64,000 nucleotides of DNA from positions 1 to 64,000 of the forward strand of contig JACUTU010000006.1 in NCBI GenBank assembly GCA_014859685.1, read 5' to 3'. Made by a program: the position numbers and the translations under genes. This DNA comes from Sulfurospirillum sp. Lineage in GTDB: Bacteria > Campylobacterota > Campylobacteria > Campylobacterales > Sulfurospirillaceae. The notes under the pieces are model-generated. The model was given only the letters and a program-made list of their open reading frames with translations, searched no databases and was not told the DNA's origin. Positions 4,540 through 41,750 of this stretch are shown here, piece by piece (the first letter of the stretch is position 1; every line of letters begins with the position of its first letter).

Positions 4540-4968
4540 ATGTTTAGCACAACAAAAGCAAAACCACTTATGGAACAAGCACTCAATGCAAGGGCTTTGC
4601 GTCAAGAACTTATAGCTAGCAATATAGCAAATATCGATACACCTTTTTATAAAGCAAGAGATGTTGATTTTGAAACAACACTTATACAAGCCACACATAA
4701 GATGTATGATAAAGATGTTACTTCAAAACTTGCACTAGCTAAAACAAACGGCGCACATCTTGATGCACCACAACAAAGTGCTAGCGCAAAGGGTACAATT
4801 TTTTTGCGTGATGGACATATGGCGAGAAACGATGCAAATACGGTTGATCTTGATGTGGAAACAACTGAGATGGGCAAAAATGACATTATGTTCAACGCGC
4901 TCACCGCCGCACTCAAAAAAAATAGTGCAATTTTTAGAAGTGTTATCGATGCATCAAGTAAAGTTTAA
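4540..4968 (+). CDS. flgB: flagellar basal-body rod protein FlgB
   Basis: A proximal rod subunit of the flagellar basal body, 142 residues. The rod-family motif ASNIANIDTPFYKARD lies at about residues 26-41, and the C-terminal helix (FNALTAALKKNSAIFRSVI) is the region that packs in the rod. An upstream GTG at 4477 is in frame. The ATG at 4540 is preferred because it gives the canonical short N-terminal helix and leaves the candidate sigma-54 promoter upstream of the gene. It is the first gene of flgB-flgC-fliE; flgC follows after 10 bp. Confidence 0.95.
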   Translation: MFSTTKAKPLMEQALNARALRQELIASNIANIDTPFYKARDVDFETTLIQATHKMYDKDVTSKLALAKTNGAHLDAPQQSASAKGTIFLRDGHMARNDANTVDLDVETTEMGKNDIMFNALTAALKKNSAIFRSVIDASSKV

Positions 4969-33196: not shown

Positions 33197-33340
33197 CTGA
33201 CCTTACGCATTTTTAAAAAAGTTCGTAAATACCTCTAATTTTCTCGAAAAGTACCCTTTTCGTAGCTTTAGGGGGCGGCAAGGACATTTGTCCCTGCCGC
33301 TAAAACAGACGCGTTCGTTTTAGTGTATAATATCACTTAG
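33197..33340 (+). repeat. MITE-like dispersed repeat, copy 2 (fullest copy)
   Basis: Starts CTGACCTTACGCA and ends TTTTAGTGTATAATATCA. Internal structure: CGAAAAG (33245-33251) pairs with CTTTTCG (33256-33262). GCGGCA (33275-33280) and the inner GGACA pair with TGTCC and TGCCGC (33295-33300), making a long hairpin around GGACATTTGTCC. It occupies the gap between the RND gene and glycine-zipper gene 1, touching the latter's stop codon. Confidence 0.85.
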
Positions 33341-33979: not shown

Positions 33980-36307
33980 TTATTGAGCCCCTCGTTTAAG
34001 TATAGAACATATTGCTTCTATATCTTTTTTATTAAATATCCCAACTACATTTTCTGCGGCGCCGATGTAATCGACAAGTTTTATATCATCTTCGGCAGAA
34101 ATGATAATAGTAGGGGTTTCAATCCCCTGCTCATCCATAAAAGAGAGTATATCAGCACTGATGCCATCTACTAAAAAGAAGTCTAAAATAATCTTATCAT
34201 AACTATTTTTACTCAGTAACTCTTGTGCTTTTACTATGGAGTTTGTAAGAGTGATGTTGTGCGTTGGATTGAGTTTGTTGATGAGGATATCTGCGTATTC
34301 TTGAGTATCCTCAACCACAAGTAGGTTAGGCGCATGTTTTTGCTGAGATGGAAGTATGGCTACTGTAGAGACCGCATCAGATATAGGAATAGTGATATAA
34401 AAACAGCTACCTTTGCCCACTTCACTCTCAACCCAAATGCGTCCTTGATGTAGATCTTCAACGATTCTTTTTGTGATAACAAGCCCAAGGCCGGTACCTT
34501 TTGAAGCAGATTGTAAGCCATTCTCAAGTTGCGTAAATGGGGTGAAAAGTTTTGAAATTCCCTCTTGTGACATTCCAACCCCAGTGTCACAAATGCTAAG
34601 GATAAACTCTCTATTGATTCCATCAAATTGTATATCAAGTGTGATTTTTCCTCCATTTGGAGTGAATTTGATAGCATTGGAGAAGATGTTTAAAAGTACT
34701 TGTTTGATAAGTTGTGGATCAACATAGAGTGCCAAAGAGATATCATTTGGAAAATTTATTTGGATATTTTTTGCATCAGCCAATGTGCTTATCATAGTAA
34801 AAACTTCATGCAAAATATCCGCAGCTAGTGTCATTTTGGGATGGTATGAGATTTTTCCAGCTTCAATTTTTGCAAAGTCTAAGATAGTATTGACTAGATT
34901 TAAAAGATTATTGCCTGCAATGGAGATTTTATCTATATAGGGGCGCAGATTTGAGGGGATATCTTGCTTTGTTTTGAGTATTTGTGAAAAACCGATAATA
35001 GCATTGAGTGGTGTTCGCAATTCGTGGCTCATATTTGACAAAAACATATCTTTTGCACGGTTTGCTGATTCGGCTTTATCGGCAAGTTTTAAGAGTGTGT
35101 ACTCTTTTTCTCTATTTATAAGTGTTGTTTTGAAGAGTTTTAAAAAAAGCCCAAGAACATCAAGAAGAAATTTTTTGTACGCTATGTCTTTTAAGTTGAT
35201 AGCGATATAAAATGTTTCATCTGAAAAAATGATTGTCTCGCTAAATTCATACTGTTTGAGCATCTGCTTTTCTTGAGTGATCTTTATCTCTGCTATAGCC
35301 CACTGCATAGAGCTTTTGAGCGTATTTGTGATTAGTTCTTGGGTAAAAATAAGCATCTTCTTAGGATTATTAAATGGGATATATTTTGTTTCATTTACGG
35401 CTGTGTTAAACTGTTGTAAAAATTGCATTCCAGATTTGATGGATAAAAATGTGATGGACGAACTATCTTCAAATGGCTTACCAACGGCTTGAAAAAGTTC
35501 GGTTGAGATTTTTTGGAGTTTCTCCATCTCTTTTGTAGCATCTGTATCGCTTTGTACAAGTTTGTAGAGTTGCTTTACGCCGTCGTGATATTTTTCGTGT
35601 AGCTGCTTGATGTTAATTATATCTAAGTGAAAAAATTTTAAGTCTGCAAATTGAATTTCAAACTGCTCGAGCAACTCACTAAATAAACAATCTTTGGACT
35701 CTGCAATAGGCAGCATTGCGCTATAAGGCGGGCGGAGTTCATTGCTTTTGAAAAGCTCCACCATCGCTGCATTTTTGTTTTTGTGGATAGTGAGCATTTC
35801 AAAAAGTAAACTGAGGGCATCTGTGATGGTCACTTTTGTATTTTGCCCATGGAGAATCTCTTTATTTTGCTCAAAATCTTCTTGTATGATAAAGGATGCA
35901 ATATCTAAAAATTTTAAAACTATTTTAAGATTTTTTTGTAAAGTTGCATTGATTGAAGCTATGTCGATGATACTATCTTGTAGGATTGAAAAAGCCGATG
36001 TGATAGTATGTTTAGAGATTCGAAATGGTATATCACTGTGCACGCGAGAGAGTTTATTTAAAAGCGATTCATCAAAATCATCATTAAAAAGCGATACTAA
36101 AAATTCTTTTCGCACTCGCTTTAGGCGTGCAATATCTACTTTATCTAAAAGCATTGCAAACTCAGGATCTGTAAGCAAATACTCATAAAATCGATCCACA
36201 ATCAAGGAAGCGAGTGATTCTATATAGAGTCCTGCCTCTTTTCTCTCTTCTAGGAGATGCTCATTTAGATGAAAAATTTTTTTGATGATTTCTATTTTGG
36301 ATTGCAT
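33980..36307 (-). CDS. hybrid histidine kinase with globin-like N-terminal sensor and C-terminal receiver
   Basis: A 775-residue soluble sensor kinase. Residues 25-150 resemble the globin-coupled sensor/protoglobin fold: FYEYLLTDPEFAMLL, then a helix ending LSRVHSDIPF with His90 in the place of the proximal heme ligand. A helical linker follows (180-400). HisKA has SHELRTPLN with His428; HATPase has NIFSNAIKFTPNGG, DTGVGM and GTGLGL. The C-terminal receiver (about 658-770) has Asp in KIILDFFLVDG. It is the last gene of the signalling cluster and overlaps the preceding kinase by 16 bp. Ligand binding (oxygen or other gas) is inference. Confidence 0.85.
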   Translation of the reverse strand: MQSKIEIIKKIFHLNEHLLEERKEAGLYIESLASLIVDRFYEYLLTDPEFAMLLDKVDIARLKRVRKEFLVSLFNDDFDESLLNKLSRVHSDIPFRISKHTITSAFSILQDSIIDIASINATLQKNLKIVLKFLDIASFIIQEDFEQNKEILHGQNTKVTITDALSLLFEMLTIHKNKNAAMVELFKSNELRPPYSAMLPIAESKDCLFSELLEQFEIQFADLKFFHLDIINIKQLHEKYHDGVKQLYKLVQSDTDATKEMEKLQKISTELFQAVGKPFEDSSSITFLSIKSGMQFLQQFNTAVNETKYIPFNNPKKMLIFTQELITNTLKSSMQWAIAEIKITQEKQMLKQYEFSETIIFSDETFYIAINLKDIAYKKFLLDVLGLFLKLFKTTLINREKEYTLLKLADKAESANRAKDMFLSNMSHELRTPLNAIIGFSQILKTKQDIPSNLRPYIDKISIAGNNLLNLVNTILDFAKIEAGKISYHPKMTLAADILHEVFTMISTLADAKNIQINFPNDISLALYVDPQLIKQVLLNIFSNAIKFTPNGGKITLDIQFDGINREFILSICDTGVGMSQEGISKLFTPFTQLENGLQSASKGTGLGLVITKRIVEDLHQGRIWVESEVGKGSCFYITIPISDAVSTVAILPSQQKHAPNLLVVEDTQEYADILINKLNPTHNITLTNSIVKAQELLSKNSYDKIILDFFLVDGISADILSFMDEQGIETPTIIISAEDDIKLVDYIGAAENVVGIFNKKDIEAICSILKRGAQ

Positions 36308-38196
36308 ATTTTTCCTTTTGGCAGGTGCATATCAAAACAACTTCCCTTGCCCAACTCGCTTTGTACTTTGATAAAACCATGGTGAAGATCCATAATCTTT
36401 TGAGAGATAGCAAGCCCAAGTCCTGTTCCTTTGATGGCTTCATTTTGATGTTCTTTTATTTGTGAAAAAGGTTTAAAAAGTTTTTCAAGCTGTTCACTTG
36501 AAAGACCAGGTCCCTCATCACAAACACTGATGATAACTTCTGCTTCATTTTCCTTACATGTAAGTGTTATTTTTTTACCTTGTGGTGTAAATTTAATCGA
36601 ATTTGAAAGCAGATTAAGCAACACTTGTCTGATAAGTTGCTCATCTGCTACCAATGTTTTGCCTGTAAAATTTTCTTGAGTTATGGATATATTTTTTTTA
36701 TTTGCTGCTGTTTCAACAAGTGTGCGTGTATTTGTCATAAAAGACTCAAGATCGATTTTTGCTGGATGTATTTCCATCTTGCCATCTTCTATCTTAGAGA
36801 AATCTAAGATATTGTTTACAAGTTCTAAAAGATGTTTGCCTGAAGTATAAATCTTTTCTATATAATTTTTCATACTCTCTTGTGGCATATCTGTTTTTTT
36901 CATCAAGATTTGAGAAAATCCTATGACTGCATTGAGCGGTGTTCGTAATTCATGGCTCATTGTGGCCAAAAAGGCACTTTTTGCTCTCTCGGCGGCTTGG
37001 GCTTCTGTGCGTGCATATTCGAGTTCACTGACATTTGTTAAGCTAGAGATGATAAATGTTTCTGTTTCTAATTGAACATGTTTTGCTTGGATTGAAAAAA
37101 TCAATTCATTGTTAAATTTGTCTTTCATTAAAACAAGATGAGAATTTTGTGGCTCTGATAATAAAATCTCTATCCATGTTTTCTCACCCATTATTTTATG
37201 TAAGTAACCCTCTTTAGGAATAAAAAGATCACAAATGCAATCGTGTTGTGAGAGAAAATCATTTTTATCAACAAAATTAAATATATCAAAAAAAGTTTGA
37301 TTGATCTGTATCATTTCAGCTCTACCATCATTCAAAGTGCTTAAAATAACGATATTGTTTTGAATATTAAAAAGAGTTTCTGCTCTTTGTGCTAATTTTC
37401 TTGCTTGCAAGGTTGCAAATTCTAATTGTTTATTGTTTTCCAAAATCTGCCTGATAACGATGGAGCCAAGGATAATTACAACCACCATAATCATAAAAGA
37501 AACAATAATTTGCAGTTTTTCATAGTATTGTGTTTCGATAAAAATATCTTTTTCAAGTTTATCAAGGTTATTTTTACTATCATAAAGCAGGCGATTTGCA
37601 TTTTCTTTCATACGGATAAATAAAGGAGAAATGCCTTTATAAAACATCTGTACTTCAAAGAGTTTATCGGCAACATCTGTTTGTGCAATCTTGCCACTAA
37701 TTAAATCATTTTTGAGTTCTATAATTTGATGCATTTCGCCAAATTTGTTTTCTATCGCTTGAAGTTTTGGCATAAGATCTATCGCTTCAAAAATAAAATT
37801 TACTTTATCTTTTGATACAAAAGTAATGATTTCTTTTGTATCATTTATACCAACTACATTGAGATCGATATAATTTTTTAAAGTTCCTCCGACTTCTAAT
37901 ATCCTAATTGCTTTTTTTATATCGGCGATCTCTTTTTGTATCTCTTTTTCGATAGTATTTAATCCTCGAATGTTGTAAACAGTTGCCATTTGATAGTAAT
38001 TCATTTGAATCATATCTATCTTTCTGACTATGTATTCGCCTATTTTATGCTTTGCAGATTCATTTTTAACATCTTGATCGAGGTTTTTAATGATATTTTC
38101 GAAAATCAAATGAAGCGCAATTATAGAGATAAATCCCAGTATAAAAACGCCCAAGAGTCCCAAAAGACTTTTTAAGAGATTGTTTTTATTTTTCAC
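36292..38196 (-). CDS. membrane-bound sensor histidine kinase with PAS-like domain
   Basis: A 634-residue kinase. Membrane helices at about 10-32 and 229-250 flank a 196-residue helical periplasmic sensor. A PAS-like domain spans about 272-392, then HisKA with His415 in MSHELRTP, and HATPase with NLLSNSIKFTPQG, DEGPGL and GTGLGL. There is no receiver, so it must pass phosphate to separate regulators such as those at 40160 and 40540. The C-terminal 230 residues are identical to those of the PAS kinase two genes upstream (see the duplicated block). The gene upstream encodes a periplasmic binding protein that could present ligand to the periplasmic domain. Confidence 0.9.
   Translation of the reverse strand: MKNKNNLLKSLLGLLGVFILGFISIIALHLIFENIIKNLDQDVKNESAKHKIGEYIVRKIDMIQMNYYQMATVYNIRGLNTIEKEIQKEIADIKKAIRILEVGGTLKNYIDLNVVGINDTKEIITFVSKDKVNFIFEAIDLMPKLQAIENKFGEMHQIIELKNDLISGKIAQTDVADKLFEVQMFYKGISPLFIRMKENANRLLYDSKNNLDKLEKDIFIETQYYEKLQIIVSFMIMVVVIILGSIVIRQILENNKQLEFATLQARKLAQRAETLFNIQNNIVILSTLNDGRAEMIQINQTFFDIFNFVDKNDFLSQHDCICDLFIPKEGYLHKIMGEKTWIEILLSEPQNSHLVLMKDKFNNELIFSIQAKHVQLETETFIISSLTNVSELEYARTEAQAAERAKSAFLATMSHELRTPLNAVIGFSQILMKKTDMPQESMKNYIEKIYTSGKHLLELVNNILDFSKIEDGKMEIHPAKIDLESFMTNTRTLVETAANKKNISITQENFTGKTLVADEQLIRQVLLNLLSNSIKFTPQGKKITLTCKENEAEVIISVCDEGPGLSSEQLEKLFKPFSQIKEHQNEAIKGTGLGLAISQKIMDLHHGFIKVQSELGKGSCFDMHLPKGKICNPK
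36325..37006 (-). repeat. 682-bp duplicated kinase-core block, copy A
   Basis: Apparently identical at the DNA level to 39056-39737 at a constant offset of 2731 bp, covering HisKA and HATPase from the EAQAAERAK linker to SCFDMH. Identity starts and ends sharply: to the left GCAG versus GAA, to the right GTGCGT versus TTTTGA. Even the TACATGTA site (36555) is shared. Confidence 0.9.
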
Positions 38197-38231
38197 CTAA
38201 AAATCCTGTTTGGTATTCAATAAAAGTTTCA

Positions 38232-39029
38232 TCAAAAAGATATTTTATCAAAATTTTTTCTATCCTCATCGTCTAAAAAGCCGTATTTGTAAAATACTTC
38301 TTGTCCTTCTTTGGAAGAGGCGTATTGCATAAACAATCGTACGAGCTCTTTATGTTTTGAAGTTTGCAAAAGATTTAAAACAAGCATTGCTTTTGGCGCA
38401 TCTTTTTCACTCAAAATTAAAGGTTCAACAAGTTTACTATTGTTATCCCAGAATGCGGTTGCATACCAGTTTAAAATAATATCTGCATCATCTTTTATTA
38501 ATGAATGTGTGAGTGTTCTTGAATCTGGAGAAAGAAAAATGGCATTGAGCATCGCCTCTTGAAAATTTCCATAGCGTGAAAGAATTTTTTTAGTTGCATT
38601 GCCTACACTACCGCTTGAGGCATTACCTAAAACGACTCGTAAGTCTTGACGCGTTAATTCATCAAGGCTAGCTTTTATATTTTTTGGATTACCTTTTTTG
38701 ACTACTAGTGCCATCTTGTTAAAACCTACAAAAACCCCCTCCAAAAGAAGTCCCTCTTTGAGATTTTCTTTTCTATAACTCAAAGAACCTGGAAAATACA
38801 AATCTCCAACTTGACTCATCTTGAGACTATCATAGAGATCTTTGCTGCCTCCTTGTAAAATTTTGATTTTGCAATTGTGCATTTTTTCAAAATTTTTTGC
38901 CAATTCATCGATAGGTTTTACCATCGTGATACCTATGTAAAAAAGTAGCTCTTTTTGCTCTTTTGCAAAAAGATTGATACTTAAAGCAAGCAGTATACAA
39001 GCTGCGAGTAGTTTTTTTGAAAAATTCAT
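38232..39029 (-). CDS. periplasmic ModA-like substrate-binding protein within the kinase cluster
   Basis: A 265-residue exported protein: signal peptide 1-22 (ending LFAKEQ) and a type 2 periplasmic binding fold. It has FYIGITMVKPIDELAKNF at the start, LQGGSKDLYDSL, and VVLGNASSGSVGNATKKIL in the hinge-side ligand region, most like the molybdate/phosphate-type oxyanion binders. No ABC permease or ATPase is near. It overlaps the PAS kinase gene by 4 bp and is 35 bp before the membrane kinase gene. That context suggests a sensory co-receptor role rather than transport; this is inference. Confidence 0.8.
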   Translation of the reverse strand: MNFSKKLLAACILLALSINLFAKEQKELLFYIGITMVKPIDELAKNFEKMHNCKIKILQGGSKDLYDSLKMSQVGDLYFPGSLSYRKENLKEGLLLEGVFVGFNKMALVVKKGNPKNIKASLDELTRQDLRVVLGNASSGSVGNATKKILSRYGNFQEAMLNAIFLSPDSRTLTHSLIKDDADIILNWYATAFWDNNSKLVEPLILSEKDAPKAMLVLNLLQTSKHKELVRLFMQYASSKEGQEVFYKYGFLDDEDRKNFDKISF

Positions 39030-40153
39030 AAATTCTCCTTTGTGTATTTTATGAAGTGCATATCAAAACAACTTCCCTTGCCCAACTCGCTTTGTACTTT
39101 GATAAAACCATGGTGAAGATCCATAATCTTTTGAGAGATAGCAAGCCCAAGTCCTGTTCCTTTGATGGCTTCATTTTGATGTTCTTTTATTTGTGAAAAA
39201 GGTTTAAAAAGTTTTTCAAGCTGTTCACTTGAAAGACCAGGTCCCTCATCACAAACACTGATGATAACTTCTGCTTCATTTTCCTTACATGTAAGTGTTA
39301 TTTTTTTACCTTGTGGTGTAAATTTAATCGAATTTGAAAGCAGATTAAGCAACACTTGTCTGATAAGTTGCTCATCTGCTACCAATGTTTTGCCTGTAAA
39401 ATTTTCTTGAGTTATGGATATATTTTTTTTATTTGCTGCTGTTTCAACAAGTGTGCGTGTATTTGTCATAAAAGACTCAAGATCGATTTTTGCTGGATGT
39501 ATTTCCATCTTGCCATCTTCTATCTTAGAGAAATCTAAGATATTGTTTACAAGTTCTAAAAGATGTTTGCCTGAAGTATAAATCTTTTCTATATAATTTT
39601 TCATACTCTCTTGTGGCATATCTGTTTTTTTCATCAAGATTTGAGAAAATCCTATGACTGCATTGAGCGGTGTTCGTAATTCATGGCTCATTGTGGCCAA
39701 AAAGGCACTTTTTGCTCTCTCGGCGGCTTGGGCTTCTTTTTGAGCTTTGATAAGATTTGTGATATCATCTCGAATCGCAACATAGCCTGTTATATTTTCT
39801 TTGTAATCTAAAAGAGGAAAAACGGTTGCATCAACAAAATAACTACCTCCCATTTTATGCTTGTTTTGCACGATGCCATGCCAAATCTGTTTTGCTTGGA
39901 TAGTTTGCCACAAATTTTTAAATACAGCAGATGGCATATCCGGATGACGCACAATACTGTGCGGTTTACCTATAAGTTCTTTTTTTGTGTATCCAGATAT
40001 CTTACAAAAAAGTTCATTTGCATTGGTGATAATTCCTCGCGGGTCAGTTTCGGAGATGATATAAGAGTGATCCATCGCCTTTTTATACTGGGTAAGAATG
40101 ACAAGAGAATTATCTTTTATATCTGTGAAATTTTGCACATTTTTTTGGCTCAT
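39026..40153 (-). CDS. PAS-domain sensor histidine kinase (soluble)
   Basis: A 375-residue kinase with no membrane helix. The PAS domain (about 28-135) has the Aer-like core IVRHPDMPSAVFKNLWQTI and a PAC end (GYVAIRDDITN). HisKA His157 and the HATPase motifs follow. From residue 140 it is identical to the membrane kinase at 36292. A redox or oxygen-sensing role would fit the Aer-like PAS, but cofactor residues cannot be verified. Phosphate is probably passed to the receiver encoded immediately upstream. Confidence 0.9.
   Translation of the reverse strand: MSQKNVQNFTDIKDNSLVILTQYKKAMDHSYIISETDPRGIITNANELFCKISGYTKKELIGKPHSIVRHPDMPSAVFKNLWQTIQAKQIWHGIVQNKHKMGGSYFVDATVFPLLDYKENITGYVAIRDDITNLIKAQKEAQAAERAKSAFLATMSHELRTPLNAVIGFSQILMKKTDMPQESMKNYIEKIYTSGKHLLELVNNILDFSKIEDGKMEIHPAKIDLESFMTNTRTLVETAANKKNISITQENFTGKTLVADEQLIRQVLLNLLSNSIKFTPQGKKITLTCKENEAEVIISVCDEGPGLSSEQLEKLFKPFSQIKEHQNEAIKGTGLGLAISQKIMDLHHGFIKVQSELGKGSCFDMHFIKYTKENL
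39056..39737 (-). repeat. 682-bp duplicated kinase-core block, copy B
   Basis: The partner of 36325-37006, in direct orientation 2731 bp away. The pair flanks the binding-protein gene and the N-terminal half of the membrane kinase, so recombination between copies would excise about 2.7 kb and leave one fused kinase. Confidence 0.9.
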
Positions 40154-40159
40154 ATGTAC

Positions 40160-40543
40160 TCAACTCTCAGCGCTGTTTTTGTTTGTAAGATATTTATCTA
40201 AAACCACTTCCAGCTCTCCCATGTCAATAGGTTTTGAGATGTATCCATCAAAACCGGCAAGCAAAGTTTTTTCCTTGTCGCCTTGAATCGCAAAAGCAGT
40301 TACTGCAACAGTGGGTGTTTGTAGTCTTAAATCTTCTCGTATTTTTTTGATGAGTTCATAGCCATCAAGTATAGGCATATTTATATCGCTCAAGATAAGA
40401 TTGAAGCTCTTTGTTTGTAGTATCTCGTAGGCAATCTGACCATTAGTGGCTGTTGTTATGTTTGCATCTGGATAAAAGATCCCGATCATCTCTTCAATTA
40501 CCATAAGATTGAACTCTTCATCTTCAACAAGTAAAATTTTCAT
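40160..40543 (-). CDS. single-domain response regulator (CheY-like receiver)
   Basis: A 127-residue receiver with acidic pocket VEDEE at 6-10, phosphoacceptor Asp53 in LILSDINMP, Thr in VAVTAFA and Lys in ISKPID. It has no output domain, so it is either a phosphorelay intermediate or acts by protein binding. Its start overlaps the HD-GYP regulator stop by 4 bp, and its stop is 7 bp before the PAS kinase start. Confidence 0.9.
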   Translation of the reverse strand: MKILLVEDEEFNLMVIEEMIGIFYPDANITTATNGQIAYEILQTKSFNLILSDINMPILDGYELIKKIREDLRLQTPTVAVTAFAIQGDKEKTLLAGFDGYISKPIDMGELEVVLDKYLTNKNSAES

Positions 40544-41646
40544 CTATACTCCTCAAGTAAATTTAGGATATGTGGCATTTCATCAAGATCTGGCAGCGCT
40601 TTTTGTATCTGCAAAAATTGTTCAATATTGTCTATAAAAAGATCAAGTAGATTTGCATCAAAGTGCGTTCCTCTACCTTCTTTGAGGATATTTAGCACTT
40701 TATCTAATGCAAAAGCTTCTTTATAAACTCTTTTGGATGAGAGTGCGTCAAATACATCAGCGATGGCAACGATTCTTGCATTTATGTCGATCTGCTCACC
40801 TGCAATCCTATTTGGATAACCACTGCCATCGTATTTTTCGTGATGTTGTGTAGCGATGATTTGACCTAGAGCTATGATGGGGTATTTTTGTCCATTGGCA
40901 AGCATTAAACCACCGATAGTGGTATGTTCTTGCATAAGCCTAAACTCTTTGTCGTCTAGTTTTCCAGGTTTGAGCAAGATAGCATCTGGTATGCCTATCT
41001 TGCCGATGTCATGCAATGGCGAAGCGTATAAAAGGAGTTGTTCTGCTTGTGCGTCCATGCCACTGAGTTTTCCTAAAAGTGCTGAGTAAGCACTCATGCG
41101 TTTGATATGCATTCCAGTTTCAAGATCCCTGTATTCACTTGCCATACCAAGTCGCAATGAAATCTCATATTCTGTTTCTTTGGCCAAGTTAAGGGCTTTG
41201 TTTAACTCTTCTGTTCTTGTAGCAACAAGAGCATCAAGATTTTTATTGATTATATCGAGTTGTTTGTGGGCTTTGTAAGATTTGGCGTGATTGATTGTGC
41301 GGAGTTTTAACTCTTCAACATCAACAGGTTTTGCTAAAAAATCATTTGCACCGAGTGCAAGTGCTGTGTGTTTTTCTTCACTATTTGCTGTTACAACGAT
41401 GATAGGTATCTCACAAAGTTTCGGGTCATCTTTGATGATCTTAAGTGCTTCAAGACCATTTAAAACAGGCATTCGTAAATCAAGCAAAACAACTTCAGCA
41501 TCGCAAGTTTGTAGTTTTTCAAGTGCATCTTGACCATTTATGGCTTGCGTGAGTTGTATTTGTGGGATATCTAAAAATGCAAGTTCAATCAAGTCTAAAT
41601 TAAATGGTTCATCATCAACTGCCAAAACATTTATAGTTTCCATCAT
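40540..41646 (-). CDS. response regulator with HD-GYP cyclic-di-GMP phosphodiesterase domain
   Basis: A 368-residue protein. The receiver occupies 1-125 with Asp56 in LLDLRMP and Lys in FLAKPVD. A coiled linker follows, then HD-GYP with ASPLHDIGKIGIPD, an intact HHEKYDGSGYP, and ADVFDALSSKRVYKE. With all catalytic motifs present it should hydrolyse cyclic di-GMP. It is the first gene of the minus-strand signalling cluster and its only recognisable enzymatic output. A longer frame from 41709 exists; the ATG pair at 41646/41643 after TTGGGGTT gives the normal receiver start. Confidence 0.92.
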   Translation of the reverse strand: MMETINVLAVDDEPFNLDLIELAFLDIPQIQLTQAINGQDALEKLQTCDAEVVLLDLRMPVLNGLEALKIIKDDPKLCEIPIIVVTANSEEKHTALALGANDFLAKPVDVEELKLRTINHAKSYKAHKQLDIINKNLDALVATRTEELNKALNLAKETEYEISLRLGMASEYRDLETGMHIKRMSAYSALLGKLSGMDAQAEQLLLYASPLHDIGKIGIPDAILLKPGKLDDKEFRLMQEHTTIGGLMLANGQKYPIIALGQIIATQHHEKYDGSGYPNRIAGEQIDINARIVAIADVFDALSSKRVYKEAFALDKVLNILKEGRGTHFDANLLDLFIDNIEQFLQIQKALPDLDEMPHILNLLEEYR

Positions 41647-41750
41647 AACCCCAATAAAATATTTTTCTTTAAAAGTCACTTGCAAAGACTTTAAAGGATA
41701 TTGTATCAAATATACCTTTTAAAAACCATACGCACATTTGGTATTTTATT

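Follow-up and report, generated by a model that had tools for sequence, protein, structure and literature searches.

Bacterial two-component systems are known to expand within individual lineages by kinase domain shuffling, a partial gene duplication in which the core of a histidine kinase is copied and its sensor is exchanged. A described Campylobacterota operon (loci L075, L076, G029, and G492) combines an HD-GYP response regulator, a receiver, a FIST-PAS histidine kinase, and a protoglobin histidine kinase. Here, we analyzed positions 1‒64,000 of contig JACUTU010000006.1 from Sulfurospirillum sp. (assembly GCA_014859685.1; hereafter the window). Its counterpart of this operon carries two neighboring histidine kinases, one with a cytosolic PAS sensor and one with a transmembrane (TM) sensor, built on an identical HisKA-HATPase core, with the gene of a periplasmic solute-binding protein (SBP) between them. 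We consider that a partial gene duplication with insertion of an SBP-sensor cassette probably equipped an existing pathway with a periplasmic input.

The repeated block is identical at 682/682 bases in a base-by-base comparison, at an offset of 2731 bp (copies A and B in Table 1). The initial annotation of this DNA had described two identical, abruptly ending blocks attached to unrelated sensor halves; the alignment bears out the former, and domain and sequence comparison supports the latter. Outside both copies, identity falls at once to the chance level (~8‒20 of 50 bases per bin). Since a 30-mer scan of the 64-kb window yielded just one other exact direct repeat, a 47-mer, the 682-bp repeat is not a chance occurrence. 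In the 2.1-Mb genome to which the window belongs, the core has only these two full-length DNA matches, and the next best match is 66% identical. The repeat begins within the linker between PAS and core that precedes HisKA (EAQAAERAKSAF) and stops 8 codons short of the stop codon of the TM kinase; no mobile-element boundary was seen at either end, and no RNA element or Rfam family was found near the repeat. The C-termini of the two kinases are unlike (...CFDMHLPKGKICNPK versus ...CFDMHFIKYTKENL), the tail of the PAS kinase being swapped for FIKYTKENL. Both proteins are histidine kinases, with HisKA and HATPase_c scores of 74‒100 bits against Pfam cut-offs of ~26, and the H, N, G1, F, and G2 boxes are present in the translation as MSHELRTPLN, NLLSNSIKF, DEGPGLS, FKPFSQ, and GTGLGLAIS.

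Table 1 Features of the kinase operon in the 64-kb window
Feature	Position	Strand	Basis or remark
Repeat copy A, HisKA-HATPase core of TM kinase	36325..37006	-	682/682 to copy B; Pfam HisKA + HATPase_c
Repeat copy B, HisKA-HATPase core of PAS kinase	39056..39737	-	682/682 to copy A; Pfam hits
HD-GYP response regulator, predicted cyclic di-GMP (c-di-GMP) phosphodiesterase (start codon uncertain)	40540..41709	-	Pfam Response_reg + HD_5; HDIGKIGIP and GYP motifs
Single-domain response regulator	40160..40543	-	Pfam Response_reg
Cytosolic PAS histidine kinase, 375 aa; PAS1 Aer/NifL/MmoS-like	39026..40153	-	Pfam, PDB sequence search
Periplasmic SBP (SBP_bac_11)	38232..39029	-	Pfam PF13531; PEB3/AcfC/ModA-like by PDB sequence search
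TM histidine kinase of 634 aa with GTG start; helical TM sensor (1‒261), PAS2 (262‒388), HisKA-HATPase	36292..38196	-	Domain analysis
TM sensor domain, SBP-coupled kinase family	37414..38196	-	45% to G353, 33‒39% to other SBP-linked kinases
PAS2 domain, FIST-kinase type	37033..37413	-	~46‒50% to L075; 43‒46% to the FIST kinase of the window genome
Protoglobin histidine kinase, 775 aa, C-terminal receiver-like domain	33980..36307	-	Pfam Protoglobin, HisKA, HATPase_c
Segment absent from KA11, 2049 bp: 30-bp joint with ribosome-binding site, SBP gene, TM sensor, PAS2; GC 30.6%	37007..39055	-	Gapless absence in KA11
Span common with KA11 at 98.4% (minus one core and 37007‒39055), sharp ends: exchanged unit	33983..41680	-	Alignment

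The operon is coded on the minus strand in the order HD-GYP regulator, receiver, PAS kinase, SBP, TM kinase, and protoglobin (globin) kinase. Its genes mostly overlap or nearly touch; the SBP start codon overlaps the stop codon of the PAS kinase by 4 bp. The receiver-like domain of the globin kinase scores below the Pfam cut-off (Response_reg, 21.4 versus 30.2). The minus-strand coding, the unlike C-termini, the SBP gene, and, as described below, the foreign composition of the insert, the chimeric TM kinase, and the operon's horizontal transfer are additions to the initial annotation.

A scan of GTDB genomes with the TM kinase as the query returned three loci, among them a counterpart operon with a single core (L074). 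It belongs to KA11, a Sulfurimonas metagenome-assembled genome (MAG) from a Taman mud volcano, assembled with metaSPAdes from short HiSeq 2 × 150 reads (PMC8470020); the comparison set comprises one genome per species. Besides the HD-GYP regulator, the receiver, and the globin kinase, L074 encodes a single PAS kinase, which is 376 aa long. When the window operon is joined at the repeat, with 2731 bp (one core plus the 2049-bp middle segment) removed, it aligns to KA11 without gaps, matching at 4889 of 4967 bases and differing at 78. The KA11 kinase unites the N-terminus of the window PAS kinase with the C-terminus of the TM kinase, including the overlap with the globin kinase gene, and the window TM kinase retains both this C-terminus and the overlap. 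The 2049-bp segment has no match elsewhere in the KA11 genome (contigs of at least 3 kb searched). This search does work, since it recovers window housekeeping DNA at 64‒74% identity. The initial annotation had proposed to compare orthologous clusters in relatives and had envisaged excision between the repeats to a fused kinase. The comparison revealed the single-core operon of KA11 and a two-kinase slot only in the window. A fused PAS-kinase allele thus exists, and we favor the view that it is ancestral over an origin by excision.

The window copies differ from each other at 0/682 positions, whereas either differs from the KA11 core at 8/682 (5 silent and 3 replacement changes; dS ~0.037), a divergence that resembles that of the neighboring genes. 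If the copies were older than the split of the two operons and no conversion had acted, ~8 differences would be expected between them (simple Poisson P(0) ~3e-4; plain Fisher 0.008). Judged from these substitution counts, the duplication, or the last homogenization, postdates the split of the window and KA11 operons, which supports the recent duplication or conversion proposed in the initial annotation.

Sequence comparison identifies the TM kinase as a chimera of an SBP-linked sensor and a core of the operon's own FIST/PAS lineage. Its sensor part (residues 1‒262) is of a family whose members are encoded immediately downstream of orthologous SBPs in other Campylobacterota (45% identity to G353 and 33‒39% to G028, G273, and G415), with ranges of ~37‒67% for the SBPs and 26‒45% for the sensors. 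The core lies outside this family: the cores of G353, G028, and G027 form another clade (100/100), whereas the TM-kinase core falls in the FIST/PAS clade, where it pairs with the core of the neighboring PAS kinase (100/99), and two trees agree in grouping it with the FIST/PAS lineage of the globin-kinase operon. The N-terminal FIST domain is absent from the window and KA11 kinases and present in L075, L076, G029, and a paralog in the window genome. This paralog was considered as a source of the core and rejected, being just 57% identical. PAS2 is of the FIST-kinase type (43‒46% in a common alignment). The insert has a GC content of only 30.6%, and GC at third codon positions is 21.6% in PAS2 versus 29.8 ± 3.3% in window genes. 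Compared with L075, the TM kinase is 46% identical in PAS2 and 68% in the core, whereas in the window genome's own FIST kinase the two parts are alike (58% and 61%). The low GC values and the greater divergence of PAS2 than of the core point to foreign DNA that already carried the SBP, the sensor, and PAS2. A search of the PDB with the sensor profile found no relative of solved structure. In G353, which has the closest sensor relative, the adjacent SBP gene is split in two frames (L152 4306‒4999), by frameshift or decay.

The kinase slot that separates receiver and globin kinase holds FIST-PAS1-PAS2-core in L075, G029, and G492, FIST-PAS1-core in L076, TM sensor-PAS1-core in G272, G169, and G357, and PAS1-core in KA11; two kinases occupy it in the window only. 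Since PAS1 is joined straight to the core without PAS2 in KA11, L076, G272, G169, and G357, the PAS1-core kinase seen in the window and KA11 does not have to be a novel fusion. Its window version can be aligned with the PAS1-core of L076 across 360 residues with no gap. On the grounds of this alignment and of the common direct PAS1-core joins, we favor the KA11 single-core operon as the earlier state. In a tree of the other three operon genes, the window and KA11 fall together on a long branch. The core trees do not distinguish a single loss of PAS2 from repeated losses and therefore leave room for a deletion in KA11 combined with conversion in the window. As a separate observation, the sensor ahead of PAS1-core varies by lineage (FIST, two kinds of TM sensor, or none), with the remainder of the operon conserved (L204, L205, L206, L075, L076, and L207).

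In the sequence of events that we prefer, the original operon would have had one cytosolic PAS1-HisKA-HATPase kinase upstream of the globin kinase, feeding the receiver and the HD-GYP regulator, an arrangement that KA11 would have kept. The PAS-kinase gene of the window lineage would then have taken up foreign low-GC DNA with the SBP gene, the TM sensor, and PAS2. The same or an associated event would have duplicated the 682-bp core, placing a cytosolic PAS sensor and a membrane sensor on identical cores. Incoming DNA may have engaged by homology at one end, in the conserved HisKA region, and joined illegitimately on the sister chromosome at the other; alternatively, a circle may have integrated by one crossover. 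Either route would be expected to leave foreign DNA between direct copies of a host segment. Duplication linked to transformation is documented in Streptococcus pneumoniae (PMC3784515). Several points weigh against this sequence of events. FIST-PAS1-PAS2-core kinases in L075, G029, G492, and the window genome have a PAS2 of the same type, which could thus be native to the operon. No donor with a sensor-PAS2-core arrangement was found in two samples of ~400 genomes each (one of the class, one of the order). The KA11 operon stems from a short-read metagenome (PMC8470020), and the clock argument breaks down if gene conversion acts.

Conversion is central to an unlikely alternative in which two kinases are ancestral, their cores being kept identical in the window while repeat-mediated recombination removed the SBP, the sensor, and PAS2 from KA11. 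Conversion and deletion are both favored by long direct repeats in cis, KA11 is the exact product of such a crossover, and the FIST-kinase type of PAS2 fits this history. However, it requires conversion after the split to explain 0 versus 8 differences, the inserted segment is foreign in composition, and no two-kinase slot was found among the relatives compared. It is quite improbable that an ancestral PAS1-PAS2-core kinase was split by the SBP-sensor insertion, with PAS1 then capped by a copied core and KA11 representing a later deletion. This order of PAS1, PAS2, and core does occur in the FIST kinases of L075, G029, G492, and the window genome, and PAS2 of the TM kinase falls with the PAS2 domains of these kinases, but the gapless 360-residue alignment to L076 and the unlike composition and divergence of PAS2 and core speak against such a split, which would also require conversion for the identity. 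We assign the lowest probability to an assembly effect, whereby slightly different window copies were smoothed to identity or two copies collapsed in KA11. The window identity is read from assembled sequence, the 2 × 150 reads of KA11 (PMC8470020) are shorter than the repeat, and a 2-kb orphan would escape notice among KA11 contigs of at least 3 kb. Nevertheless, an unresolved repeat should break a contig, whereas the contigs of KA11 (114.8 kb) and the window (142 kb) run through; both window junctions are in frame, with an intact linker and the 4-bp gene overlap.

The operon itself has been exchanged horizontally between the window and KA11 lineages, as judged from its 98.4% identity against about 64‒74% for matched housekeeping DNA. 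The shared span ends sharply, and the flanking genes differ between the genomes. Since the KA11 flanks have a GC content of 40‒41%, compared with 35.9% for the KA11 operon and 36.3% for the window, transfer into KA11 from a window-like lineage would be the simpler direction. An intact FIST-PAS1-PAS2 kinase (C12:69126-71813) is encoded in the ychF-pepA interval of the window genome, about 30 kb from the operon, preceded by remnants of an HD-GYP gene and a receiver gene and followed by a protoglobin pseudogene with 4 stops (G000 C12:68500-72110 = L065 10500-14110). This locus looks like a decayed native copy of the operon and would independently support the transfer. A plasmid origin was considered and rejected, PLSDB giving only short matches of 67‒78%. 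In G353, this interval contains a response regulator-SBP-kinase set (L152 1718‒8961); in the window genome, it contains the FIST kinase (L065 9422‒15724). The ychF-pepA interval may thus be an exchange site for signaling genes. Two small secreted proteins with similar N-termini, possibly paralogs, are encoded on either side of the imported operon (33337‒33849 and 43577‒44065). The operon region is also flanked by two copies of a dispersed intergenic repeat of ~115‒145 bp, with ends TTACGCAC...GTGCGTAA and strong hairpins (z -3.3), that resembles a miniature inverted-repeat transposable element. It lies at 33198‒33320, 42505‒42584, and 16009‒16121 in the window, has at least 41 copies in the window genome (G000), and occurs at many KA11 sites (best 92‒94%).

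In a PDB sequence search, PAS1 is similar to solved PAS domains of the MmoS, Aer, and NifL type (3ewk, 2.6e-29; 8dik, 2.1e-28; 2gj3, 5e-13), which bind flavin adenine dinucleotide (FAD), and it is predicted by this similarity to be an FAD-type redox PAS. The SBP resembles PEB3, AcfC, and ModA, scoring 45.9 bits with the ModA family TIGR01256 against a cut-off of 62.5. Gas sensing is predicted for the globin kinase. A ligand of the SBP in the periplasm would act via the TM kinase, and the redox state via the PAS kinase. Since their HisKA and HATPase domains are identical, the two kinases should share their receiver choice. With the same phospho-acceptor helices, both should phosphorylate the single-domain response regulator and/or the HD-GYP regulator and thereby change c-di-GMP turnover; these two proteins are probably the output. 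Ashenberg et al. 2011 reportedly found that the HisKA/DHp domain determines the choice of dimer partner, and mixed dimers of the cytosolic and membrane kinases are therefore plausible. It is improbable, in our view, that the slot is a site of recurrent input swapping that is still reversible here, with repeat recombination removing the SBP sensor and leaving a working PAS kinase, and that mixed dimers integrate redox and nutrient signals.

The operon offers a natural close-up of bacteria adding an input to an existing pathway, with the core kept letter for letter and the sensor new, and the near-identical insert-free operon allows both states to be compared. It becomes testable whether freshly duplicated kinases with identical dimerization domains cross-dimerize and use common receivers. 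The lifetime of such repeats, until they diverge or recombine away, becomes testable as well. Compared with the Campylobacterota operon introduced above, the window operon agrees in gene order and in its orthologous HD-GYP regulator, receiver, PAS1-core, and globin kinase, but it lacks FIST and a downstream 260-aa gene and has the additional SBP and TM kinase. TorT-TorS serves as a working analogy, in that an SBP gene immediately precedes the gene of a kinase with its sensor between two predicted TM segments. In contrast, the window kinase has a core of the FIST/PAS lineage and, unlike the SBP-coupled kinases of G353 and G028, no receiver or Hpt domain, and its score with the TorS family TIGR02956 is 242 bits, over the core region only, against a cut-off of 676.5. 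Merodiploids formed by transformation (PMC3784515) and homology-facilitated illegitimate recombination are comparable in that a single homologous anchor can let a short piece of incoming DNA duplicate the neighboring host sequence; here, this is one possible route, and no sequence proof of transformation was seen. As in kinase domain shuffling elsewhere, a core was copied and a sensor exchanged, with the copies adjacent in one operon. The window operon is a clean example of this known process, and it differs from the others in being caught at 100% identity, with a near-identical insert-free operon in another genome.

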